Positions 14,603-25,060 of a stretch of DNA of 64,000 nt are shown here, piece after piece. The stretch comes from Bacteroidales bacterium. GTDB taxonomy: Bacteria; Bacteroidota; Bacteroidia; Bacteroidales; 4484-276. The stretch is from positions 1 to 64,000 of the forward strand of contig JACZJL010000010.1 in NCBI GenBank assembly GCA_014860585.1. Reading direction: 5' to 3'. Every line of letters starts with the position of its first letter. The stretch's first letter is position 1. The position numbers were made by a program, and so were the translations under genes. The notes under the pieces were generated by a model, which made no database searches, was not told where the DNA came from, and saw only the letters and a program-made list of their open reading frames with translations.

Positions 14603-16009
14603 ATGTTAATCCTGGCATTTCTTTGTTTTTCAAATTTCGTGTTCACCCAGCAGTCGGTTACTCTGATGACCTACAACCTGCTTAAGTTTAGCGAAAACAG
14701 TTCGGATAGGTTACCCTGCTTTAAAACAGTGCTCGACAGCCTTCAACCAGATATTCTCATTGTACAGGAAATCTTTTCACAGGGCGCCATTGATCTTTTT
14801 CATTCTAATGCGCTGGATACATCCTATCAAAAAGGTATTTTTATCGACGGTCCTGACAGTGATAATGGTGTTTTTTACAAACACGACCGGTTTACTTTCG
14901 TAAGCAATACACCAATCCCAACGGCACTGCGCAACATCAGCGAGTTCAAATTGGTTTTTCAGCCCACGGGGGATACCCTTCGTATTTATTCGGTTCACCT
15001 CAAAGCGAGTTCAGGATCAGCCAGCGAAACACAGCGATTGCAGGAAGTTATGGCACTCAGAAACATCACCAACTCGCTCCCGGCCGGCAGCAATTTTGTT
15101 GTCTGTGGTGACTTTAACATGTATAAATCTTCAGAACCAGCCTACCAGGCACTGATCTACAATAACCAGGAGTCTGAAGGGCATTTCATTGATCCCATCA
15201 GCCTGACCGGAACATGGAATAAAGCAGAACATGCCCGTTTTCACACACAAAGCACACGAACACGTCAATTTGGAGGCGGTGCTTCTGGTGGTCTCGATGA
15301 TCGGTTCGATATGATTCTTTTCTCAAGTGCTATCGAACAACCTGGTGGGGTTCATTATATGCCTAATTCCACATGGGCTGTTGGAAACGATGGTTTTCAT
15401 TACAACGACAGCGTTAACAAACAGCCAAACAGCAGCGTTTCACAGGTCCTTGCCGATGCGTTGCACTGCGCTTCAGACCATCTTCCGGTGATTGCCAGGT
15501 TTTTTTTTGGAGGCACTGTAATTAATTTATCTGTTTCGCTTGAAGAAGGGTGGAATTCCATTTCAACATTTTTCGAGCCTTACAACACTGAGATCCCGTT
15601 CATTGTTGCCCCTTTGGGCGCCAACTTTATTGCTCTCCATGATATTGAAGGGCTGGTTTATCCTGAAGGAGGTACGAATTCAATAGAAAATTGGAATTAC
15701 CATCTTGGTTATGCTTTGAAAGTGAGTGAATCAGCTACATTGATCATTCAGGGCTATCTGCCTGATAATGCATGGGTACAAATTAATGAAGGATGGAACA
15801 TGATCCCCGTATTGTCTGACAGCGCAAAGCAAATTGAAGATGTTTTTGGTCAAAACCTGGTACATGTTGAAATGATCAAAGAAGTGGCAGGAACAAACGT
15901 ATTCTGGCCGGCGATGGGAATTTTCAGTCTTGAATACCTCAACCCAAAGGCTGCCTATTATCTGAAAAGCAGCCGGGTATTTACTGCAGATTTTCAATCA
16001 GTCAAATAG
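14603..16009 (+). CDS. Secreted endonuclease/exonuclease/phosphatase-family protein
   Basis: 468 residues from the only ATG (14603). Signal-like segment LILAFLCFSNFVFTQQ, then a DNase I-like (EEP) domain to about residue 310 with the family motifs TYNLLKFS, LIVQEIFS, VHLKASSG, VVCGDFNMY and ASDHLPVIARF, including the metal-binding Glu, the DFN pair and the terminal S-D-H. Substrates could be nucleic acid, phospholipid or sugar phosphate. The last ~170 residues form two similar beta-rich segments around 'LEEGWNSIS' and 'INEGWNMIP', a pattern seen in secreted Bacteroidota proteins. There is no recognisable T9SS tail. TTG/GTG codons upstream in frame could extend the start to 14543. Confidence 0.85.
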   Translation: MLILAFLCFSNFVFTQQSVTLMTYNLLKFSENSSDRLPCFKTVLDSLQPDILIVQEIFSQGAIDLFHSNALDTSYQKGIFIDGPDSDNGVFYKHDRFTFVSNTPIPTALRNISEFKLVFQPTGDTLRIYSVHLKASSGSASETQRLQEVMALRNITNSLPAGSNFVVCGDFNMYKSSEPAYQALIYNNQESEGHFIDPISLTGTWNKAEHARFHTQSTRTRQFGGGASGGLDDRFDMILFSSAIEQPGGVHYMPNSTWAVGNDGFHYNDSVNKQPNSSVSQVLADALHCASDHLPVIARFFFGGTVINLSVSLEEGWNSISTFFEPYNTEIPFIVAPLGANFIALHDIEGLVYPEGGTNSIENWNYHLGYALKVSESATLIIQGYLPDNAWVQINEGWNMIPVLSDSAKQIEDVFGQNLVHVEMIKEVAGTNVFWPAMGIFSLEYLNPKAAYYLKSSRVFTADFQSVK

Positions 16010-16014
16010 TAGAT

Positions 16015-16953
16015 TTAACCGCACAACCCCCTTTTTACCTCTAAAAATTCAGCCATCATTTCACGAATAATATCTCCGGCTGGCTTTATTTCATTGATCA
16101 ATACCGAAACCTGGCCAATTTCCAATTCCCCTTCGTCGGCGTTTCCCTCAAACATGCCCAACTTCGCCCGACCTCGTCCGAGATGAGTTTTTATTTCATC
16201 CACCGATGCTCCGGAATTTTGCATTTGCTCGATTTCATCAAAAAACTTATTCCGGATTAATCTTACAGGAACCACCTGTTTCAACGTCAGTTTTGTATCG
16301 CCTTCATTGGCGCAGATAACCTTTTGTTTAAAAATCGGATGTGCCGACGACTCCTCAGAGGCCACAAACCGGCTTCCCACCTGCACACCGTCAGCCCCCA
16401 GCGCAAAGGCAGCCAGCATCTGGCGGCCTGTTCCAATCCCGCCTGCTGCAATTAGTGGCAGGTCAACAATTTTCTGGATTAAGGGGATGAGGACCATCGT
16501 CGTGGTTTCATCAATCCCATTGTGACCCCCAGCTTCAAAACCTTCGGCAACGATGGCATCCACCCCGGCCTCCCGGGCTTTGATGGCAAATTTGGAACCT
16601 GCAACGACATGAACCACCGTTATTCCATGATCTTTGAACACCGGGGTCCATTTCTTCGGATTACCCGCTGAGGTAAAAACGATCTTCACCTTTTCGCGAA
16701 GTACGATTTCAACGATTTCGTCCATTTGCGGATAAAGCAGCGGGAGGTTCACACCAAAAGGCTTAGTGGTGGCCACTTTGATTTTCTTCAGGTGTTCCAC
16801 AAACACATCGGGGTACATCGAGCCGGCGCCGATCAGCCCCAGCCCGCCCGCCTCCGAAACAGCGGCAGCCAACCGCCACCCCGAGCACCAGATCATCCCC
16901 GCCTGGATGATGGGGTATTTTATCCTGAAAAGTTCTGTGATTCTTGTGATCAT
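16015..16953 (-). CDS. Nitronate monooxygenase / FabK-like flavoprotein
   Basis: 312 residues, TIM-barrel flavoenzyme of the 2-nitropropane dioxygenase group (PF03060). Features are the N-terminal YPIIQAGMIWCSGWRLAAAV, phosphate-binding EGFEAGGHNG and AAGGIGTGRQMLAAFALGADGVQVGSRF, all FMN contacts in this family. It may oxidise alkyl nitronates, or act as an FMN-dependent enoyl-ACP reductase (FabK); sequence alone does not decide, because no fab genes are adjacent. The gene converges with the EEP gene with only 5 bp between the stops. It lies just beyond the leftmost attC-like structure and is of ordinary composition, so I treat it as backbone and not cassette. Confidence 0.88.
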   Translation of the reverse strand: MITRITELFRIKYPIIQAGMIWCSGWRLAAAVSEAGGLGLIGAGSMYPDVFVEHLKKIKVATTKPFGVNLPLLYPQMDEIVEIVLREKVKIVFTSAGNPKKWTPVFKDHGITVVHVVAGSKFAIKAREAGVDAIVAEGFEAGGHNGIDETTTMVLIPLIQKIVDLPLIAAGGIGTGRQMLAAFALGADGVQVGSRFVASEESSAHPIFKQKVICANEGDTKLTLKQVVPVRLIRNKFFDEIEQMQNSGASVDEIKTHLGRGRAKLGMFEGNADEGELEIGQVSVLINEIKPAGDIIREMMAEFLEVKRGLCG

Positions 16954-17040
16954 TTTGAAATAAAAATTTGTTGAATGGTTATTTCCTCAATCGTAATGAT
17001 ACCGGCATTTTAGGATGATGGTCTCGTCGTGCTTTTGCCT

Positions 17041-17107
17041 GGTAACGGTCAATTATAAGCGAAGTGCGGGATTAGAAGCACTTCACCTTCGGTTTAACCA
17101 TATGTTA
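17041..17107 (-). other. attC-like inverted repeat (weak), site A1
   Basis: On the minus strand, AAATAAC (ending 17104) leads into a hairpin with GAAGTGC/GCACTTC arms (17061-17067 and 17078-17084) and ends at a GTTACC core (17041-17046). Its length (~67 bp) lies in the attC range and it is downstream of the lipoprotein gene at 17179, the correct side for a cassette recombination site. The outer arms pair poorly, so this is the least certain member of the set. Confidence 0.4.
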
Positions 17108-17178
17108 TTTAATATTCAATTCGTTCAAATTTAGTATTTTAGCCCGCATTACTATTATACAGTGATTAATGGTCGTTA

Positions 17179-17607
17179 TTATTCTTCTTTCCTCCAATCT
17201 TCGATGATTTCTTGATTATTTTCATTATATGTAAAAGTTGTCAGGTTATCTGAAATTTGAAACTCATAAGATTTTTGAGAATTATCGTAATTAAAATAAA
17301 TAATACTATTTGAAGGGTTTAATTCAAATACACCGTTTGTTTCATATCCAACTCCAGAAGCCGTGAATTCTCCCTTTAGGTTATCAGGTTCACTATCTGG
17401 TTTGAAGATAATATAATCGCAACATTGAATTGATAAATCTGTAATTCCATTTATTGTTCTTGTTTCAAGTTTCCATTTTCCAAGAATACCAAATTGTTCT
17501 AAGTTGTCAGAAGTCTCAATTTCGACTTTTTTTTCGACTTTTTCACAACTTGAAAAAACGGTTAATATAGATAAAATTAGAACAAGAAAAAATTTCAAAT
17601 GTCTCAT
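17179..17607 (-). CDS. Small predicted lipoprotein, putative cassette gene
   Basis: 142 residues. The signal peptide KFFLVLILSILTVFSSC ends in a lipobox Cys. The mature domain (ILGKWKLETRTINGI ... FKPDSEPDNLKGEFTASG ... DNLTTFTYNENNQEIIEDW) has the look of the small lipocalin-like/DUF lipoproteins of Bacteroidota, where 'GKWKL' opens the barrel. Function unknown. The gene is clearly more AT-rich than the neighbouring nitronate monooxygenase gene and is bounded by the GTTGTATGGC core at 17715-17724 upstream and an attC-like structure downstream, so I infer recent acquisition as a cassette. Confidence 0.7.
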   Translation of the reverse strand: MRHLKFFLVLILSILTVFSSCEKVEKKVEIETSDNLEQFGILGKWKLETRTINGITDLSIQCCDYIIFKPDSEPDNLKGEFTASGVGYETNGVFELNPSNSIIYFNYDNSQKSYEFQISDNLTTFTYNENNQEIIEDWRKEE

Positions 17608-17714
17608 TTTCTTTTATTTTTTAAGATTCATAGCAAAGTTAATTTTTAATACTTGGGACTTCCTGTTTCATAGATTATTTTTTGGTTAACTTTTACGGTC
17701 ATTTGTTTTTTAAT

Positions 17715-17739
17715 GCCATACAACACGCTGTTATAGGGC
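17715..17739 (-). other. Minimal cassette junction, site A2
   Basis: GCCATACAAC (17715-17724), ACGCT, GTTATAGGGC (17730-17739). On the minus strand this is the inverse core GCCCTATAAC of one cassette, a 5-bp remnant and the core GTTGTATGGC of the next. The inverse core is an exact reverse complement of the same cassette's upstream core at 18447-18456. The body is far shorter than a functional attC (normally 55 bp or more), so the site is probably a deleted one. Confidence 0.55.
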
Positions 17740-18015
17740 GTTTTTCTTTATTTTTTGTCTTATTATCAGTATTGTAAGTGCAAATGGAATTGTCACTCCG
17801 GAAATTAATGAAACCATTTTTATCAAACCTACAATTGCATAAAATCCAAATCCCCAATCTGTTCTAAACCTGTCAGCTTTTTTCAATAAGGCACTCAAGT
17901 CCTGAGAATTATCCATATAAAAGAACAGTCCCAAGCACAATAGTCCAATAATACATAGTCCAATTATTTTAAAAGCCCTTTTCAATTGGTTGCTATTTTG
18001 AAGGGTCAAATCCAT
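17731..18015 (-). CDS. Small two-helix membrane protein, putative cassette gene
   Basis: 94 residues with two predicted membrane segments (IIGLCIIGLLCLGLFFYM and VSLISGVTIPFALTILII) linked by a soluble stretch (ALLKKADRFRTDWGFG). No family is recognised. It overlaps the 3' end of the DUF4844 gene by 23 bp, so the two are co-translated. The last codons GCC CTA TAA followed by C form the cassette inverse core GCCCTATAAC; a stop codon embedded in the recombination site is typical of integron cassette genes. Confidence 0.65.
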   Translation of the reverse strand: MDLTLQNSNQLKRAFKIIGLCIIGLLCLGLFFYMDNSQDLSALLKKADRFRTDWGFGFYAIVGLIKMVSLISGVTIPFALTILIIRQKIKKNAL

Positions 18016-18430
18016 ACATAAAGTTATTCAAATGTCCACCTGAACTTTCAAGTCCTACAATGTCCATTAGTTCTTCAAAGTAACTACAAACTCTTTCTCG
18101 GTCTTCTGTGTCAAGTTGCAAGTAAAGGTCAGCGAATCTTTCAAGTCCGATTTTAATTGCGTTTTGATAATCCTTATCTGTTGAGTTTCCTTTGTCCGCA
18201 AGTTTTTTAAAGTCGTCTGCGACAAGATTGATTTTCTCTGTCAAAATAGGTTTCAGTTTCGGGTCGCCAATTCCTGGATAAAAAAGTTTGTCATCTTGTA
18301 AAAATTTTTCTTTGTTTTTGAACTCTTCAAACTTTGTCATTGCATTGTCTGGTGTTTTCAATTGTCCTTGTCCACAAGATGTGAAAAGAAGCAAAGTCAG
18401 TCCTAATATTAAGTTTGTTATTTGTTTCAC
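17993..18430 (-). CDS. DUF4844-domain lipoprotein, putative cassette gene
   Basis: 145 residues from a GTG start. The signal peptide ILGLTLLLFTSC ends in a lipobox. The mature part agrees with DUF4844 as I know it (GIGDPKLKPILTEKINLVADDFKKLADKG ... RFADLYLQLDTEDRERVCSYFEELMDIVG). DUF4844 has no known function and is usually found as a small all-helical protein in Bacteroidota. Upstream by 16 bp sits the cassette core GTTATAGGGC (18447-18456). Codon usage and AT content match the other genes of the array and not the backbone. Confidence 0.7.
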   Translation of the reverse strand: MKQITNLILGLTLLLFTSCGQGQLKTPDNAMTKFEEFKNKEKFLQDDKLFYPGIGDPKLKPILTEKINLVADDFKKLADKGNSTDKDYQNAIKIGLERFADLYLQLDTEDRERVCSYFEELMDIVGLESSGGHLNNFMYGFDPSK

Positions 18431-18446
18431 TGTCGTCTTTTAAAAT

Positions 18447-18594
18447 GCCCTATAACGGTTCGCGGCTATGGTGCATGCCGCTTTTCTTGTACTGTTTTTA
18501 TAAAAATGCACCATTTTCATTTTTACTATTATCTTTATTATTTTTCATTACCTTCGGCATGCACTATGAGTCGCTGTTCTATGCAGTTATCATG
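18447..18594 (-). other. attC-like inverted repeat, site A3
   Basis: GCCCTATAAC (18447-18456) and CTATGGTGCATGCCG (18466-18480) pair with CGGCATGCACTATGAG (18555-18570) and GTTAT (18586-18590). The whole structure is about 140 bp with AAC/GTT at its ends and a non-paired centre, which is the geometry of an attC site. It lies between the M60-like protease gene and the DUF4844 gene, downstream of the former. The left core is the exact complement of the next cassette's inverse core. Its ends deviate from the strict RYYYAAC/GTTRRRY consensus. Confidence 0.55.
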
Positions 18595-18614
18595 TTACAT
18601 TTAATTGGTCTTCT

Positions 18615-21341
18615 CTACCTCAAAATCAAAATTCGTTTACTTATTTGTACACCACCAGCCAATTCGATTTGCAGTAAATACACCCCTTCTTTTAGTGCAG
18701 ATATATTAATTCGATCAGCTTTTCGGGATTGAGTAAGTACCTGACCATGAATCGAAACTATTCGTAAGCTCTCTATTTGTTTATTACCTCCTGTAAAATC
18801 AATATAGATTTCTGTCGAAGCAGGATTAGGGTATATTCTAAGTCCCTCCGCTTCTTCATCGGTTAAACTTGTTAATATGAATTGAGCAGTAGATTCACAT
18901 CCATCGAAATCCACAACGGCTACAGTCATAACATTTCCAGTTGTGTCAATGGAAATATCATAGGGTGGTACGCCTCCCGTCACGATAATGACTTCATTAA
19001 CCATGTAGATATTCATGGTGTCAAGCAAGCAGCAAACGTCTGGATTACCATTGCCCGCAGGTTCACCATCCGGATAATAGAGTTCTATGATGGATTGAAG
19101 GATATCAGTTCGGATCTGGGCTTCGGCTGCATCGTAAGTCAATGATTTCTGGTAATGCCATCCTACCCCATAATCAGGATCTTCTATCGGGCCATTCGTG
19201 TACAGGTCAGGGTAAACCGACAGGGCGTAATTGACGAATGCCGCGTTGTCCTCAGGAATCAGGTCGAAATAGTCTTGCAGTCTGTTGTAGACCGTGAGGG
19301 ATTGCGGTACACCGATCTGGGCCAACGTGTCTTGTACCGCAATTGAATCTTGTGGAAGAATTCCAAAAACATGGAACAAAGGACGCAGATCGGCCTGCGC
19401 CGCAACCGACATCCTGATGATCCTGCTGTCAATCTCCTGGTCGTTGCCGCCATGGATGATTCCATTCTCAAAGTCCATGAATTCCTGCTTCCAGAAATTT
19501 CTGAGCGGACACCACCCAAACATATTAACGATCTCAAAATAGTGTCCGTACCCTCTGTGCTGGTATCGTACTTCGTCGGTTGTAGTATTGGAAATATCTC
19601 TTTCTGAACCAAAAGTATTAGAGACTATTCTATGGGTGGCGGTCTTGTCGATGTCAAACGTATTCGGAACGAAGCTGTAATTCACCGCTACATTCAGGTC
19701 GACATCGAGGCCATAATTCATAGCCATGATGTATGGTACATTGACCAGGGCCTCCTCCTCACCCGGAAATTTAGATATCGCCAATGCATGCCCGGTTTCA
19801 TGAAAGTTTGTCTCATCATCAGGTCCGGGACCGTTTATAAAATAAGCCGGGCCGGGGACATTGGTATAGTTCAGCGGTGTGTTAGACATCGGATAGCCGA
19901 TTGAATAAGAGCCAGTTCTGATATCTATATCAGCAATCATATACATATTGTGTTTGTCGGGAATGATCTGTCTGGCTAAAATGGAATTGACACCCCGTAC
20001 AGCCGACTCCCAGTCCAGCATGGCTTGCATGAGATCATACTGAAAAGGGGCAATAGAATGCTTAGGAATGGTGAACATGACATTTTCTGTCTCAAAGACA
20101 GCCCAGGGACCAGGCTTGCTGAATTCGGCGTTGAAGTCTGGGGTTTCATAAAATGACTTCAGCGAAAAGAAGGGGGCTTCCACACCGTTGCTCACACTGA
20201 TCCCGACAATACCATCATTGGCGCCGTAGGGAACAAGAACCGAAATCGCTCCTCCAAACGGATTGAAAACCTCTGTTGTCGTTGAAGTGATTGGAAATTT
20301 CCGCGATATCCTGTCAAATCGTCTGAAATAGGTTCTGTCGGTCAAATCCCATTCATGAGACCCTACTCTGATATAATAGCCCTGGCCAACCAAACTATCA
20401 GGCACAGTAACACTGGCTATACTTCCGGGAGATAAATACAGACCCGTAGGTCGAAGGGCATGATCGGTTCCATCTCCATTAATATCGAAGTAGGGGTTCA
20501 TCCCATCCGGGTCTTCAAAATTTGCCAGGATGAGTGCGGAATTACTTGCGGATGAATCTGCCGGCGGGTCAACAAATCCGGGGAAAACGGAGCACGAATT
20601 GAACTTCCAGCCATTTATGTGTTGTGGATAATCTGCATAAATTTCTGGGGTGAATACACAATCGAATATTCCCTGCTGAAGGGCAAACATGGCCCGTTCC
20701 AGTTCCATACCCGGTGCTGCTGCAGGGTCCTTGGGAAAGCCGTTTTCGGTGGTGGGAGTGGTAAAAAGTGCCCCTATTTCATTATCATAATCTTCAACCA
20801 CACTTTTTGATAGCAATATGTTAGATTCGCTGCCGGCCAGACATTCCGGGAATAACGTGAAAACATTTCTGATCAGTGTGAGTTCCTCGGCGTCAAGCGT
20901 GATTGCTCCATTGATGTGTGCCTGAAGATCATTAAGCGCAGTAAGAATCATACCACATGAATCCCAGCAATTCACAACGGTCATGGCGTAAGATCCAATG
21001 TCATTGGAAGCACTGTAAACAAGCATTTCATCCAGATAAACCTTACACCCGCCGGGAGCATAAATGCCATCTCCCCATGTATCATAAATCTCAAAAAACA
21101 AGCACTCATTAGAAAGAACGCAGATGCTATCAGAATAGCTCGTGTTGTTTTGGTAAACTCCATTCTGGCCACCTTGCATGACTATAGTGCCCAATAGATC
21201 GGACAAGGTCCAGGAAGTTTCATAACCCCAATCATCTGTCATTATTTCTACTCTCACTTCAACTTCATTTTCGTCGCATTGAGCGAAGCTGTAACCTGTA
21301 AAAAGGGTCAGAAGGGAACTGATTAATAAAATTTTTTTCAT
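18615..21341 (-). CDS. T9SS-exported M60-like (enhancin-type) metalloprotease
   Basis: 908 residues. A signal peptide (KKILLISSLLTLFTGYSFAQC) is followed by a ~100-residue domain of the 'W-G-D-G-I/Y' secreted type (TWGDGIYAPGGCKVYLDE). An M60-like peptidase domain follows with the gluzincin motif HETGH (His514, Glu515, His518) and the downstream acidic residues in PGEEEALVN. A T9SS type A sorting domain closes it (LRIYPNPASTEIYIDF ... LKEGVYLLQIELAGG). M60-like enzymes cleave mucin-type glycoproteins in several host and environmental bacteria; the substrate here is not shown. At 2.7 kb it is unusually long for a cassette, yet it lies between attC-like sites A3 and A4 in the array orientation. 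Confidence 0.85.
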   Translation of the reverse strand: MKKILLISSLLTLFTGYSFAQCDENEVEVRVEIMTDDWGYETSWTLSDLLGTIVMQGGQNGVYQNNTSYSDSICVLSNECLFFEIYDTWGDGIYAPGGCKVYLDEMLVYSASNDIGSYAMTVVNCWDSCGMILTALNDLQAHINGAITLDAEELTLIRNVFTLFPECLAGSESNILLSKSVVEDYDNEIGALFTTPTTENGFPKDPAAAPGMELERAMFALQQGIFDCVFTPEIYADYPQHINGWKFNSCSVFPGFVDPPADSSASNSALILANFEDPDGMNPYFDINGDGTDHALRPTGLYLSPGSIASVTVPDSLVGQGYYIRVGSHEWDLTDRTYFRRFDRISRKFPITSTTTEVFNPFGGAISVLVPYGANDGIVGISVSNGVEAPFFSLKSFYETPDFNAEFSKPGPWAVFETENVMFTIPKHSIAPFQYDLMQAMLDWESAVRGVNSILARQIIPDKHNMYMIADIDIRTGSYSIGYPMSNTPLNYTNVPGPAYFINGPGPDDETNFHETGHALAISKFPGEEEALVNVPYIMAMNYGLDVDLNVAVNYSFVPNTFDIDKTATHRIVSNTFGSERDISNTTTDEVRYQHRGYGHYFEIVNMFGWCPLRNFWKQEFMDFENGIIHGGNDQEIDSRIIRMSVAAQADLRPLFHVFGILPQDSIAVQDTLAQIGVPQSLTVYNRLQDYFDLIPEDNAAFVNYALSVYPDLYTNGPIEDPDYGVGWHYQKSLTYDAAEAQIRTDILQSIIELYYPDGEPAGNGNPDVCCLLDTMNIYMVNEVIIVTGGVPPYDISIDTTGNVMTVAVVDFDGCESTAQFILTSLTDEEAEGLRIYPNPASTEIYIDFTGGNKQIESLRIVSIHGQVLTQSRKADRINISALKEGVYLLQIELAGGVQISKRILILR

Positions 21342-21365
21342 TTTGTTTAATGTTAGCTGTTTATT

Positions 21366-21503
21366 GCATAAAACGGGTCGCAGCTAAGAAAAGTGGGGCT
21401 TTTCGAAGCACTTTCCTGTCCGCCGTGACATAGGAAGCCACAAAGAACGAACCTTGCGGAAACCACTGTCCGCCCCATGTTTTCTTAGGTGCTGTTGTAT
21501 GCC
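21366..21503 (-). other. attC-like inverted repeat, site A4 (best example)
   Basis: GCATAAAAC (21366-21374) and GCAGCTAAGAAAAGTGGGG (21380-21398) pair with CCCCATGTTTTCTTAGG-TGC (from 21473) and GTTGTATGC (21494-21502). The full length is 137 bp with a mismatched loop, the length and layout of a canonical attC. On the minus strand the inverse core GGCATACAAC lies 5 bp after the stop of the upstream gene and matches that gene's own core at 22055-22064 exactly. Confidence 0.6.
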
Positions 21504-21507
21504 GTTT

Positions 21508-22050
21508 TTATTTTTTCAATTTTATAATTTTTTGTGTCAGGACGTAACTTCCGTCTCCTTCCTGATTTGGATTAATAATTATGTAATCAAGTCGTTTGAT
21601 TTTTTCATACTCGTTAATGTCAATCGTATAAGTATCATCAGCGATGAAAAAACGTTTTTCAAAGATTTCGTAATCGTCATCAAATTCTTCCATCCCTTTA
21701 TATTCCGCAACTGAGAGAAGGTTGTCAATACGGGTTATTTTTCCAAGAGTAATATTTGAACCGTTATTTAATCTCCAAGCTTTGTATGAACCTGATTCAA
21801 ATTCCATTCTATTTGTCTTGATTCCAAATTCAAATGTGCTGGAAGAATCAATTATTGGAAATCGGTAAAACTCTCCGACCTTTTCACCCTTGATTTTAGT
21901 TCCATCCACAACTATCCAAACTTCTGACACCTTGATATTCTTTTCTTTATCGTTCTTGAAGAACTCAATTGAATGCATAGAATAGTCAGTTTGACCAAAA
22001 GTCAAATTAGCTGAGATTGAGAATAATATTGTCAGCAATATGGTTTTCAT
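21508..22050 (-). CDS. Secreted hypothetical protein, putative cassette gene
   Basis: 180 residues from the ATG at 22050, which gives a clean signal peptide (MKTILLTILFSISANLTFGQ). The mature part is beta-rich (VSEVWIVVDGTKIKGEKVGEFYRFPI ... SNITLGKITRIDNLLSVAEY) and unlike any family I recognise. The gene sits between matching inverted cores GTTGTATGCC (21494-21503) and GGCATACAAC (22055-22064), only a few bases from start and stop, the packing expected for a gene cassette. AT-rich relative to the window. Confidence 0.65.
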   Translation of the reverse strand: MKTILLTILFSISANLTFGQTDYSMHSIEFFKNDKEKNIKVSEVWIVVDGTKIKGEKVGEFYRFPIIDSSSTFEFGIKTNRMEFESGSYKAWRLNNGSNITLGKITRIDNLLSVAEYKGMEEFDDDYEIFEKRFFIADDTYTIDINEYEKIKRLDYIIINPNQEGDGSYVLTQKIIKLKK

Positions 22051-22054
22051 AAAT

Positions 22055-22080
22055 GGCATACAACTCATTTATTGTTAAGC
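22055..22080 (-). other. Cassette core boundary, site A5
   Basis: GGCATACAAC (22055-22064), a 9-bp spacer and GTTAAGC (22074-22080). GTTAAGC fits the strict GTTRRRY core consensus, and GGCATACAAC is the exact complement of the downstream inverse core of the gene at 21508. The short spacer means the next attC body, if any, is lost. The array seems to end here, as 22081-22323 shows no gene and no repeat. Confidence 0.45.
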
Positions 22081-22323
22081 TAAAACTGTACACTGATTTG
22101 ATACTGGAAGAAAATATTGTACGGTTTTCACCCATTTTTATTTTTATCGTTGACTCAATGAACTGAAAATGTCAAGCCAAAAATAGTGTTATTACCAAAC
22201 AACAAGTTGTCAAACTAATATCAGCAAGAAAGTTCTTTGCATTTGTATTTCAACGATTTTATTACACTAACCTTCTCATGTGGAGCTTTTTTGCTACTTC
22301 AAATTAGTTTACAAAAAATTGTG

Positions 22324-22569
22324 TCAATCGTAATGAAACCTACATTTCGCGATCAGAATTTCGTCATTTTTAACCTGGTAAATCAACCGGTGTTCTCCAT
22401 CAATTCTCCTCGACCAGAAGCCCTTGTATTTATGTCGGAGTGGTTCAGGTTTTCCAAGGCCGGTAAAGGGATGCCGTGAAATATCTTTTAGCAGTTCATT
22501 GATTTTCTTATCGGTCGTTTGCCAGTAAAGATAATCCTCCCATGATTCTTCGACAAATATGTACTTCAT
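22324..22569 (-). CDS. yoeB: YoeB toxin (mRNA interferase)
   Basis: 81 residues closely following YoeB/Txe: the ribosome-dependent endoribonuclease, released when YefM is degraded, that cleaves translated mRNA. The diagnostic C terminus AKCRFHYD carries the essential His-Tyr, and RHKYKGFWSRRIDGEHRLIY carries the catalytic Arg and substrate contacts. The gene overlaps yefM by 4 bp (ATGA), the conserved arrangement. There is no obvious defect. Confidence 0.95.
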   Translation of the reverse strand: MKYIFVEESWEDYLYWQTTDKKINELLKDISRHPFTGLGKPEPLRHKYKGFWSRRIDGEHRLIYQVKNDEILIAKCRFHYD

Positions 22570-22820
22570 GACTCAATCAGCTCTTTTTCGAAGGTTTCTC
22601 CTTTTTTTAGCTTTTCAATGGCGGCATCCAGTCGCAGTTCGTTTGCCCGTGAGGACAGTTCGTGCTGCGTGGCTTTCAGCGCGTTGTACTCGTCGAGCGA
22701 GATGACAACAACACCGGTATCTTTACCTCTATTGATGACAAGCGTTTCAAAATTGGAGGTGACCTCATCAAGGTACCTTTTGATGTCTTTTCTAAAATCC
22801 GAAATCGTTGTGGTTAACAT
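22566..22820 (-). CDS. yefM: YefM antitoxin (Phd/YefM family)
   Basis: 84 residues from the ATG at 22820. The N-terminal DNA-binding half (LTTTISDFRKDIKRYLDEV ... GVVVISLDEYNALKATQH) matches Phd/YefM, and the flexible C-terminal half would wrap YoeB. I rejected the longer frame from 22853 because the chosen ATG has an AGGAG ribosome site 6 nt upstream (22827-22831) and the YefM family starts there. YefM represses the operon with YoeB as co-repressor; the matching operator is at 22835-22852. Confidence 0.93.
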   Translation of the reverse strand: MLTTTISDFRKDIKRYLDEVTSNFETLVINRGKDTGVVVISLDEYNALKATQHELSSRANELRLDAAIEKLKKGETFEKELIES

Positions 22821-22834
22821 TTTCGTCTCCTTTC

Positions 22835-22852
22835 TGTACAAAAATAAGTACA
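22835..22852. promoter_or_regulatory. YefM-YoeB operator (TGTACA-type)
   Basis: TGTACA at 22835-22840 and a one-base variant AGTACA at 22847-22852, with centres exactly 12 bp apart, 15 bp upstream of yefM. In Escherichia coli the YefM-YoeB operator has adjacent palindromes with TGTACA cores and a 12-bp centre spacing, as I recall it. The overlap with the promoter is expected but the promoter itself is not clear. Confidence 0.75.
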
Positions 22853-22894
22853 AAAATCGAAATAAGGATTTAAGGATAAAAAATTAGACCAATC

Positions 22895-25060
22895 CTACTC
22901 CACCACCACCATTTCTTCGATCAGATGCCCGGCGCCGGCATATTTGTCGATGATGAAAAGGCAGTACCGCATGTCGAGCATGATATTGCGGCATTGGTCA
23001 GGGTCAAACATCAGATCGCTCATGGTGCCTTCCCACACCCTGTCGAAGTTGAGCCCGATCAGCTGACCATCAGCATTGAAAGCCGGGCTGCCGGAGTTGC
23101 CGCCGGTTGTGTGGTTGGTGGCAATGAAGCAAACCGGTAAAGTTCCGTTCAACCCATATTTCCCGTAGTCCTTTGTTGTGTAAAGCTGCTTCAGCTTATC
23201 ATCCACCAGGTAATCTTCCACATTGGGGTCTTCTTTTTCGATGATGCCTTCGATGGTGGTTTGTTTCTGATAGAAAACAGCATCGCGCGGATAGTAAGGT
23301 TTGACATTTCCATAGGATACCCTTAGCGTGGAATTGGCATCAGGATAGAAGCGGCGCTCCGGTTCAAACTCCAACTGGGCTTTCATGTATAACCGCATCA
23401 GGCTGTCGTTTTGGTTTGTAATGCGGGAAACTTCCGGAAATATTTTTTCCTGGTAGTGCTTCACTAATCCGCCGGCAAGCTGATAACCCGGGTCTTTCAG
23501 CAATTTCTTGTATTGGTTCTTCCTGAAACCTTCGAGAAAGTCCATCGCTTTTGCCTGGTCCGCAAACATCGATTTTTCAAAAACAAAATCAGCATATTGC
23601 CTGATGTTACCATCAAATTTCTGATCGATGAGATCAAATACCGGGGGTAATTTTTCTTTTGCAACGGCTTCCCGGTAGGACGCAAGCATCGCTATAAACA
23701 CCTCCCTGTCAACCGGCTGATGGTAATCCTTGTAAAAGGTCCGGAGCGAAGTGGTTGCTTTTTCAACTTCTGCATCCACCTCTTCATCTGTTGCTTCCTT
23801 GTTTCGGGCAATGTTCTCAAGTGCTGAAAGCGCCCTGGCTGCCCTGACGATCTCTATGCCAAGTCCTGCTTCCTGCATGTAAACCATCTCCAGCTGAAGC
23901 CCGGTTAATTGAGCATAATTTTCCTTGAAATGAGACAGTAAACTTCCGTAATTTTTTTCTTTTTCCTGCGACGACTCAATCCAGCGTTGAATAGCAGACT
24001 CGTGCTGTTCTTTTTTTTCAATCCCGTTCAATTTGCGAATCCCATTATTTTCGCCTATCCATTTTTTCCAGGCATTCGATAAACCTTTGTGCTTATTGGA
24101 GTATTGTAATTTCACCAGGGCATCCCGACTCATGAACGATTCATAGATATCGAGTTTCTGGCGGCGAAGGTCAATGCGTGCCGGGTTTTGCACCTGGGTA
24201 ATCATTTCGATAGCGTAGGAGGGGAGGTATTGTTCAGTGCGACCGGGAAATCCAAAAACAAAAGTAAAGTCATCCTCCTGAATCCCTTTCAGTGAAACGG
24301 GAAGCACATAATGGGGTTTGTAGGGGACGTTATCGGGCGAGTATTCTGCCGGTTCGTTCTTCTCATTAACATAGATCCTGAAAAGGGAAAAATCACCGGT
24401 ATGCCGCGGCCACATCCAGTTATCGGTATCGCCACCAAAATTGCCTATACCCGAAGGTGGCGCCCCTACTAACCGGACATCTTTAAACACTTCGTTTACA
24501 AAAAGATAATACTCATTTCCGTAGTAGAATGGCCTGATGAAAGCAGTATAATGCGTGCCTTCTTTGGCTTGATTTACCAGCTCTTCACCGTTCTTTTTGA
24601 TGATCTCGCTCCGTTCTTTTTCGGTCATCCCATCACTCACACCTTTAAGCACCTGATCAGTCACATTTTCCATCCTTACCAGCCTTGTAACCGTAAGTCC
24701 GGGGCTGGGCAATTCTTCCTGACGATTCATTGCCCAAAAACCATTGGTCAGCATGTCGTTTTCGATGGTGCTCAACCGTTGAATTGCGCCGTAACCGCAA
24801 TGATGGTTGGTAAGCAATAATCCATCAGCCGAGATAGCCGATGCGGTGCAGCCTCCTCCAAAAAGAAAAATGGCGTCCTTCATCGAACCGTTGTTGATGT
24901 CATAGATGTCTTTTGCCGACAGGCGCATGCCCATGTCCTGCATTTGTTTCTCGTTGAGTTGCTCAAGGAGCATTGGTATCCACATTCCTTCGTCTGCCTG
25001 AGATAAAGCAGGCAGCAGGAGGAACAATGTAACCATTGATCTTAAAAAATAATTTTTCAT
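22895..25060 (-). CDS. S46 dipeptidyl peptidase, DPP11 specificity class
   Basis: 721 residues, periplasmic S46 serine peptidase with signal peptide MVTLFLLLPALSQA. The catalytic His lies in LLLTNHHCGYG, the Asp region is GDTDNWMWPRHTGDF, and the Ser is in GGNSGSPAFN (Ser656). The residue 18 positions after the Ser is Arg674 (FDRVWEG). This position is Arg in DPP11 (acidic P1, Asp/Glu) and Gly in DPP7 (hydrophobic P1) of Porphyromonas. The enzyme therefore probably releases N-terminal dipeptides ending in Asp or Glu, supporting growth on protein. It pairs logically with the POT peptide transporter elsewhere in the window. Confidence 0.93.
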   Translation of the reverse strand: MKNYFLRSMVTLFLLLPALSQADEGMWIPMLLEQLNEKQMQDMGMRLSAKDIYDINNGSMKDAIFLFGGGCTASAISADGLLLTNHHCGYGAIQRLSTIENDMLTNGFWAMNRQEELPSPGLTVTRLVRMENVTDQVLKGVSDGMTEKERSEIIKKNGEELVNQAKEGTHYTAFIRPFYYGNEYYLFVNEVFKDVRLVGAPPSGIGNFGGDTDNWMWPRHTGDFSLFRIYVNEKNEPAEYSPDNVPYKPHYVLPVSLKGIQEDDFTFVFGFPGRTEQYLPSYAIEMITQVQNPARIDLRRQKLDIYESFMSRDALVKLQYSNKHKGLSNAWKKWIGENNGIRKLNGIEKKEQHESAIQRWIESSQEKEKNYGSLLSHFKENYAQLTGLQLEMVYMQEAGLGIEIVRAARALSALENIARNKEATDEEVDAEVEKATTSLRTFYKDYHQPVDREVFIAMLASYREAVAKEKLPPVFDLIDQKFDGNIRQYADFVFEKSMFADQAKAMDFLEGFRKNQYKKLLKDPGYQLAGGLVKHYQEKIFPEVSRITNQNDSLMRLYMKAQLEFEPERRFYPDANSTLRVSYGNVKPYYPRDAVFYQKQTTIEGIIEKEDPNVEDYLVDDKLKQLYTTKDYGKYGLNGTLPVCFIATNHTTGGNSGSPAFNADGQLIGLNFDRVWEGTMSDLMFDPDQCRNIMLDMRYCLFIIDKYAGAGHLIEEMVVVE

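Follow-up and report, generated by a model that had tools for sequence, protein, structure and literature searches.

The 64,000-nucleotide stretch analysed here (the window: positions 1 to 64,000 of contig JACZJL010000010.1 of a Bacteroidales bacterium, assembly GCA_014860585.1) carries, between a nitronate monooxygenase gene (NMO, 16015-16953) and an S46 peptidase gene (22895-25060), an array that very probably represents four cassettes of an integron-like capture system with a dedicated tyrosine recombinase, attC-like hairpins and an attI insertion site. Sequence comparison supports this reading at several levels: a family of sites, here called R1, whose arms covary; private pairs of cassette ends; the linkage and orientation of one recombinase family relative to the arrays; the position of attI; different cassettes behind one attI in two related plasmids; a whole cassette common to two classes; and an extra stretch in the window with respect to related genomes. 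Judged by these comparisons, the R1 system appears to work like an integron without being an IntI integron. Genomes, contigs and loci are designated by G, C and L numbers where they have to be told apart.

The array in the window and its site family

The five open reading frames (ORFs) of the array, described as co-oriented in an initial annotation of this DNA, all lie on the - strand. Read in that direction, the array is composed of a head core followed by cassette 1, S1, cassette 2, S2, cassette 3, S3, cassette 4 and S4:

22055..22076, - strand: array head, attI-like end AACAATAAATGA and then leading core GTTGTATGCC (22064-22055), with GTT at 22064-22062
21374..22063, - strand: cassette 1, protein of unknown function (ORF 21508-22068) and its own site
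21362..21504, + strand (hairpin strand; the cassettes read on -): attC-like site S1, R1 104.8 bits
18456..21373, - strand: cassette 2, M60-like secreted peptidase with a type IX secretion tail (ORF 18615-21341)
18444..18586, + strand: attC-like site S2, R1 91.7 bits
17724..18455, - strand: cassette 3, DUF4844 protein (ORF 17993-18430) and small membrane-like protein (ORF 17731-18015)
17715..17739, - strand: collapsed site S3, without its hairpin, both cores being linked by AGCGT (GCCCTATAAC-AGCGT-GTTGTATGGC, 25 bp)
17046..17723, - strand: cassette 4, lipocalin-like protein (ORF 17179-17607)
17034..17172, + strand: decayed terminal site S4, R1 27.8 bits, E 2.5e-4
16954..22894, no strand: whole extra stretch from NMO to S46, two genes that are adjacent in six relatives

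The ORF of cassette 1 likely starts at 22050. A Pfam scan returned no match for its product or for the small membrane-like protein of cassette 3; it identified PF17291, PF13402 and PF18962 in the cassette 2 peptidase and PF16133 in the DUF4844 protein (E 1.6e-35), and the lipocalin-like assignment of cassette 4 is based on a PF13648 match (E 0.0034) below the family cut-off. The AT-richness initially attributed to all five genes holds for the small ones (31-37% G+C per kb) and not for the protease (47%).

Inverted repeats had been proposed at five positions. Two of them fold as long imperfect hairpins (18447-18594 and 21366-21503), better on the + strand (fold z -2.39 and -2.86, for S2 and S1 respectively) than on the - strand (-1.22 and -1.13). 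The other three are not intact hairpins: the one at 17715 is really the collapsed S3, which was not detected by the R1 search of the window, 22055 corresponds to a core only (fold z 0.29) and 17041 falls within the weak, decayed S4. No match was found in an Rfam scan of the window. Terminators alone were considered as an explanation of the hairpins and dropped, as they leave the private cores unexplained. The two exactly matching core pairs previously reported are both present, GTTATAGGGC 17730 / GCCCTATAAC 18447 around cassette 3 and GTTGTATGCC 21494 (21494-21503) / GGCATACAAC 22055 around cassette 1. The protease cassette has a further pair with one mismatch (GTTTTATGCA / TGCATAGAAC) that had been missed, and a search for a private pair in cassette 4, whose end core is decayed, found none. 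Three exact 10-mer pairs of this type occur in 16901-22200, against 0-2 in 100 Markov-resampled copies; the third (20281/21254), inside the protease gene, is taken as chance. Since the whole window contains 12 such pairs, against a mean of 6.75 and a largest count of 11, the core pairs of the window are weak evidence by themselves.

The signature AACGGKTYGCRGCTA was derived from S1 and S2; a first site pattern was uninformative. The signature matches exactly in 12 of 149 same-order genomes (this one and 11 others), with 18 matches in total, four of them in this genome; as judged by eye, a hairpin of the same type follows 15 of the 18. These 15 sites (alignment A1) gave the R1 covariance model, L006, L037 and L042 having been dropped by eye for lack of a hairpin. 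The structure, drawn by us from the same 15 sequences that gave the covariation figures, has 22 pairs; 89.1% of the cells are paired, both sides have changed in 12 of the 22 pairs, and its covariation is 0.400, compared with 0.142 when shuffled and 0.064-0.183 when slid. Because S1 and S2 are the source of the signature and both belong to the training set, their matches to AACGGKTYGCRGCTA and R1 are not independent; independent support for the window sites comes from the recurrence of the same signature and fold elsewhere, for instance on contig C139. Of 296 genomes sampled from Bacteroidota, 141 contain R1 sites, and by our own count so do 52 of 70 same-class genomes; the numbers of sites per genome are lower bounds, as at most 10 candidates were scored in each. 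This genome has 11 matches at E up to 1, distributed over C10 (3), C61 (3), C7 (2), C139, C188 and C44.

Of 237 aligned R1 sites, 226 have AAC and 223 have GTT. The initial annotation saw in the window cores a partial fit to RYYYAAC/GTTRRRY, but across the family this fit is at about chance level: RYYYAAC is found in 13 of 236 sites, GTTRRRY in 16 and both in 3. A strict regular expression for classical attC gave 0 matches in ten stretches; since seven IntI neighbourhoods are among these, the expression is too strict to serve as a control.

This bears on the proposal that the array is a classical CALIN (cluster of attC sites lacking integrases), that is, what is left of an IntI-type integron after the loss of intI. 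Such a remnant would have a similar cassette layout, hairpins and private cores, and IntI (TIGR02249) exceeds its cut-off in 84 of the 296 genomes of the phylum. Nevertheless, the canonical boxes are at about chance level; within the class, IntI exceeds the cut-off only in G185 (1 of 70 genomes), which has no R1 site; 27 stretches around 22 IntI genes yielded a single weak R1 match (L074, 29.5 bits); and it is a different recombinase that sits at the arrays. A CALIN origin is thus very unlikely, and the array would rather be part of a parallel integron-like system. The 83 other sampled genomes with IntI above the cut-off lie outside the class, and nearly full-length sub-threshold TIGR02249 matches (116-122 bits) were observed in G384:C8 and G227:C7.

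The recombinase and its insertion site

This genome (96% complete) yielded no IntI above the curated cut-off (TIGR02249, 265 bits). Its best TIGR02249 stretch scores 120.1 bits, and the same protein taken whole 210.6 bits. A matching recombinase is nevertheless encoded on contig C24 (237-1418, - strand), with an attI and the first part of a cassette behind it. The family to which it belongs was first noticed through sub-threshold IntI matches near R1 arrays, and 10 of the 15 first genes had an array downstream in the same direction.

Linkage was then evaluated at loci picked by recombinase protein similarity in named genomes (the best 80 of at least 586 stretches), whose hosts include Flavobacterium, Algoriphagus, Winogradskyella, Pedobacter, Chitinophaga and Marinilabilia. 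All 111 R1 sites in these loci are on one strand relative to the recombinase; 109 are found in the 276 kb downstream of it and 2 in the 650 kb upstream. A downstream site exists at 35 of the 80 loci, and at 27 of the 34 with at least 2 kb of downstream sequence. A contig ends within 600 bp of the recombinase gene downstream in 28 loci and upstream in 2, an excess that would be expected if arrays halted assembly. As a control, the two Xer-like loci of this genome contain 0 R1 sites. The typical layout is a recombinase gene upstream of the array, pointing in the direction of the cassettes. A different arrangement was observed in L120 (G186:C33:372001-392000), where the array is accompanied by a 306-aa recombinase without the N-terminal domain described below, encoded by a gene directed away from the array; the leading core, with one mismatch, is at 14724, about 130 bp from the recombinase start.

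The position of the insertion site was deduced by predicting the leading core of the first cassette from its private pair. This core was located in 41 of the 45 arrays, 25 of which have it 89-107 bp past the recombinase stop codon. It lies at most 240 bp from the stop in 36 of the 45, compared with a mean of 1.5 and a largest value of 5 for the cores of other sites in 200 draws. The bases preceding GTT at attI approximate TATAWRYRA. When the window was ranked with a matrix built from the 36 other arrays, in which it was not included, the head GTT (22064) came first among its 2424 GTTs.

The attI of C24 has repeated GGTTAC motifs and GTTATGCGCA. Copies of it on C139 (L075/L274) and C15 (L273) are 94-96% identical over 56-87 bp. 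A recombinase remnant was looked for upstream of the attI-like copies on C139, C61 and C15, and none was found; a 127-aa ORF, presumably HU-like, precedes the copy on C15. On C119 (23821-23940, L232), a 171-aa ORF ending in a recombinase remnant is followed by attI-like sequence and the core GTTAGTTGCA; this locus is a second, broken platform. Together, the copies of the C24 attI and the C119 remnant suggest that platforms break up and spread in this genome, by whatever route. C61 (L260) contains two cassettes, each behind a similar 75-base attI-like lead (GGTTACAAGCGA and GGTTATAGACGA before GTT).

The recombinases are mostly 340-400 aa long and belong to the XerA/IntI branch. IntI-type integrases are defined, in the extracts available from PMC9668308, by an IntI-specific additional domain (I2) around patch III. 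This insert is not present in the R1-array recombinases, as indicated by the alignment of this genome's protein and by the spacing between the KGxKDR and HxLRH boxes, which is 58-59 aa in 75 of 79 family members (4 not scorable), 100 aa in 12 of 12 same-phylum IntI and 66 in two Xer-like proteins of this genome. In a 59-row tree, IntI (100/100) and the R1-array recombinases (99/98) each form a clade, and these two clades group as sisters (97/86) to the exclusion of archaeal XerA and Xer proteins. In a quick tree built earlier without XerA, IntI fell within the R1-array family. The trees comprised every second member of 340-400 aa and named extras, and their array label designates the protein family, whether an array is in view or not. 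Since the two trees differ, the sampling of XerA-like sequences is thin and some branches are long, this branching is provisional: in this limited tree, the R1-array recombinases appear to be a clade separate from IntI. The best NCBIfam match for the six recombinases tested is NF040815, entitled 'site-specific tyrosine recombinase/integron integrase', with 211-248 bits; as this is close to its cut-off (220), some R1-array recombinases are annotated under this title.

Most members have an extra N-terminal domain of bbabbab topology, whose 79-residue model has a mean predicted local distance difference test (pLDDT) score of 91.9. Its best Foldseek match is the HARP domain of SMARCAL1 (4o66, E 0.13, probability 0.84, a middling score), and VIA-align gives Z 5-6 for XPB (best 2fz4, 6.0) and Z 4 for HARP. 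Pfam scans of this domain in 40 members matched PF07443 in 3 (best E 0.0011) and DUF5710 in 11 (best E 0.0021). If these middling matches hold, the modelled domain would be of a fold type that contacts forked or distorted DNA; this is the case for HARP, and one VIA-align match, 6p4f, is an XPB-forked DNA complex.

Cassette ends, contents and movement

The initial annotation was right in describing cassettes that have their own matched cores and a site downstream of the gene. Same-strand neighbours within 4 kb among the 237 aligned sites form 154 pairs, sites further apart being left out. The cassette ends form a 10-bp pair GTTN7...N7AAC in which 6-7 of the 7 variable bases agree in 75% of pairs (mean 5.48), compared with 3% for reverse pairing (mean 2.81), 7% for the two halves of the same site and 2.5% at random. 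From these counts and controls it follows that each cassette has its own pair and that the two halves of a site in an array mostly come from different cassettes, the pattern expected after insertion through recombination at the core.

Cassettes repeat with a median length of 1.1 kb and 33% G+C, and the longest ORF follows the cassette direction in 135 of 149. Among the first 25 families listed for the 102 of 140 cassette proteins that were scanned, defence-like matches include two Shedu SduA, an Eco47II endonuclease, a viperin, a SAVED-HNH protein and a Schlafen-type helicase. The DUF4844 gene was considered as a common cassette and dropped, as it is rare (above the cut-off in 2 of 296 genomes). 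The copy in G205 has only a 10.5-bit, 30-base R1 trace beside it, and a homologue 64% identical to the cassette 3 protein is found between two R1 matches, one of them weak (23.3 bits), in Winogradskyella epiphytica (L220).

Three further natural comparisons point to movement. First, among 67 plasmid records that match the recombinase, two were examined, the Chryseobacterium plasmids NZ_CP041688 (L277) and NZ_CP094530 (L278). Their backbone, recombinase and attI are 86-90% identical, and around attI|GTT 103 of 110 bases agree on the left and 28 of 110 on the right. At E up to 0.001 there are five R1 sites in the former and none in the latter. In the array of L277 (13134-20691), three R1 matches are followed by the start GTTGGGAAAAATC, which is also present at the attI. 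Second, G342 (Bacteroidia) and G164 (another class) share one cassette with 92.8% identity over 875 bases. The match starts four bases before a GTT core and ends about 20 bases past the next core; by eye, the hairpin arms differ yet stay paired, and the neighbouring DNA gave no other match. Third, the stretch between NMO and S46 has no counterpart in six relatives, in which both genes are adjacent; two of these belong to the same genus and four to the family. S46 is not beside NMO in two further family members, G446 and G448 (about 0.65 kb in view), and G447 was left out. Contamination was dropped as an explanation of the array, the flanking genes being syntenic with the same genus.

These observations also address the view that the hairpins are dispersed palindromes, whether miniature inverted-repeat transposable elements, repetitive extragenic palindromes or similar to bacterial interspersed mosaic elements, set between genes by chance or by a transposase. 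Some related hairpins are indeed solitary, as on C188 of this genome. Yet the private core pairs span genes, the sites keep a single orientation downstream of one recombinase family, and the cassette common to two genomes includes its own hairpin, so that this explanation is extremely improbable.

Several observations weigh against the interpretation as a capture system. The window has two intact sites only, no recombinase or remnant was found in a search upstream of its head, and its exact junctions are not visible, as the intergenic DNA of the relatives does not align. L278 has no R1 site above 14.8 bits, and the exchange is seen there without a match to the model. Five of the 15 first genes are atypical (L118 ends before any array, L120 differs, L135 has one distant site and L136 and L137 none). 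No R1 site is in view downstream at 45 of the 80 recombinase loci, nor at 7 of the 34 with at least 2 kb downstream, and the two upstream sites are both in L166. The leading core is missing in 4 of the 45 arrays, and the C24 attI of this genome scores low (-1.66) with the general matrix; given its top rank, the window head resembles the general kind of attI and not the C24 kind. Finally, the fold match of the N-terminal domain is weak, an unrelated chain (1zhv) reaching Z 5.9 against 6.0.

Possible mechanism and relation to known systems

In the capture system that we favour, a dedicated tyrosine recombinase encoded just upstream of the arrays, lacking the IntI insert and usually equipped with a HARP/XPB-like N-terminal domain, would join circular cassettes to an attI about 100 bp past its own stop codon, with the crossover at or beside G^TT. 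Every cassette would bring one attC-like hairpin; on insertion, the outer 10-bp arms of this hairpin (N7AAC / GTTN7) would turn into the cassette's two ends. The breakpoints are the basis for inferring that circles form and that they insert at GTT. The recombinase would act on the folded (bottom) strand, as IntI does, because the arms need pairing only in the free circle: in an array, N7 and its partner are hundreds of bases to several kb apart, and they become neighbours only in the circle, where they would close the hairpin. That N7 matches despite its great diversity suggests selection on the fold of the circle. As the window array is apart from the recombinase and behind an attI-like end, its most likely origin is either insertion in trans at a chromosomal attI-like site or the decay of a platform of which it is the remnant. 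From these comparisons we infer catalytic activity, the use of a single strand, the precise base of the crossover, what the N-terminal domain does and the route into the window locus.

Alternatively, the same arrays could be produced by ordinary double-stranded recombination, the hairpins serving some other purpose, for instance the termination of transcription. In favour of this scenario, the insert with which IntI handles folded sites is missing from the recombinase, and attI resembles a double-stranded site with repeats. It seems unlikely nonetheless, since the N7 beside the crossover varies by cassette, which would leave a double-stranded site without any constant arm sequence, pairing of N7 with its partner requires the site of the circle to fold, the arms covary, and in both intact window sites the fold is better on the + (bottom) strand. 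A more specific version of the folded-strand capture system, in which the R1 platforms are a second integron lineage, with a recombinase related to IntI that lacked the I2 helix from the outset and recognises folded single-stranded sites through its HARP/XPB-like domain, is tentatively put forward as a possibility somewhat short of even.

The R1 arrays share with IntI integrons a recombinase beside the insertion site, arrays that run one way, a single hairpin site in each cassette, AAC/GTT triplets, private cassette ends and the presence of different cassettes behind one attI. Of the features by which integrons are recognised, they show an imperfect hairpin of conserved structure with AAC/GTT, and an attI next to the recombinase at the first cassette (36 of 45 arrays, and the plasmid pair). 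In contrast to IntI integrons, their recombinases have no IntI insert and form their own clade, the gene is typically upstream of the array and points as the cassettes do, and the sites carry their own signature AACGGKTYGCRGCTA...TAGGTGCTGTT and not RYYYAAC/GTTRRRY. XerA and other Xer recombinases (NF040815) are the best NCBIfam match and have the same catalytic boxes, but most R1-array recombinases have the extra N-terminal domain and are linked to cassette arrays, whereas XerA acts at a single dif site. For that N-terminal domain, the HARP of SMARCAL1 and the recognition domain of XPB are the best structural matches, with weak scores.

The available extracts of PMC8138268 describe an 'integron-like' subgroup of tyrosine recombinases in which the insertion is not fully conserved; they call the insertion essential for integron function and describe no arrays for members without it. 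The I2 helix acquisition has been presented as the step enabling IntI to act on folded sites, with intermediates noted as lacking (PMC7790495, in extract). According to PMC9024848, only In0 had been found in Bacteroidetes in an earlier study by its authors; it now reports a complete integron in Salinibacter, in addition to Chlorobi and Ignavibacteriae. No description of R1-type arrays was found in the titles and opening abstracts of the open-access PubMed Central literature, a search that preprints and subscription papers could escape.

Integrons are usually counted through IntI and classical attC, and R1 sites are present in 141 of the 296 sampled genomes of the phylum. With at least one whole cassette common to two classes, two plasmids bearing the platform and defence-protein matches in some cassettes, R1 platforms would, if the second-lineage reading is true, form a Bacteroidota-wide cassette pool invisible to IntI-based searches. 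The occurrence of a related recombinase without I2 at hairpin arrays also makes the question of the I2 helix testable; if that reading is true and the cassette system is older than the split, R1 platforms would be the missing intermediate between Xer recombinases and IntI.

Two further genetic elements were observed close to the arrays. A YefM-YoeB toxin-antitoxin pair (22324-22853), not counted among the cassettes, lies inside the extra stretch of the window, upstream of the array head. The array of L277 includes an IS110 transposase gene and a group II intron maturase gene near weak R1 matches.

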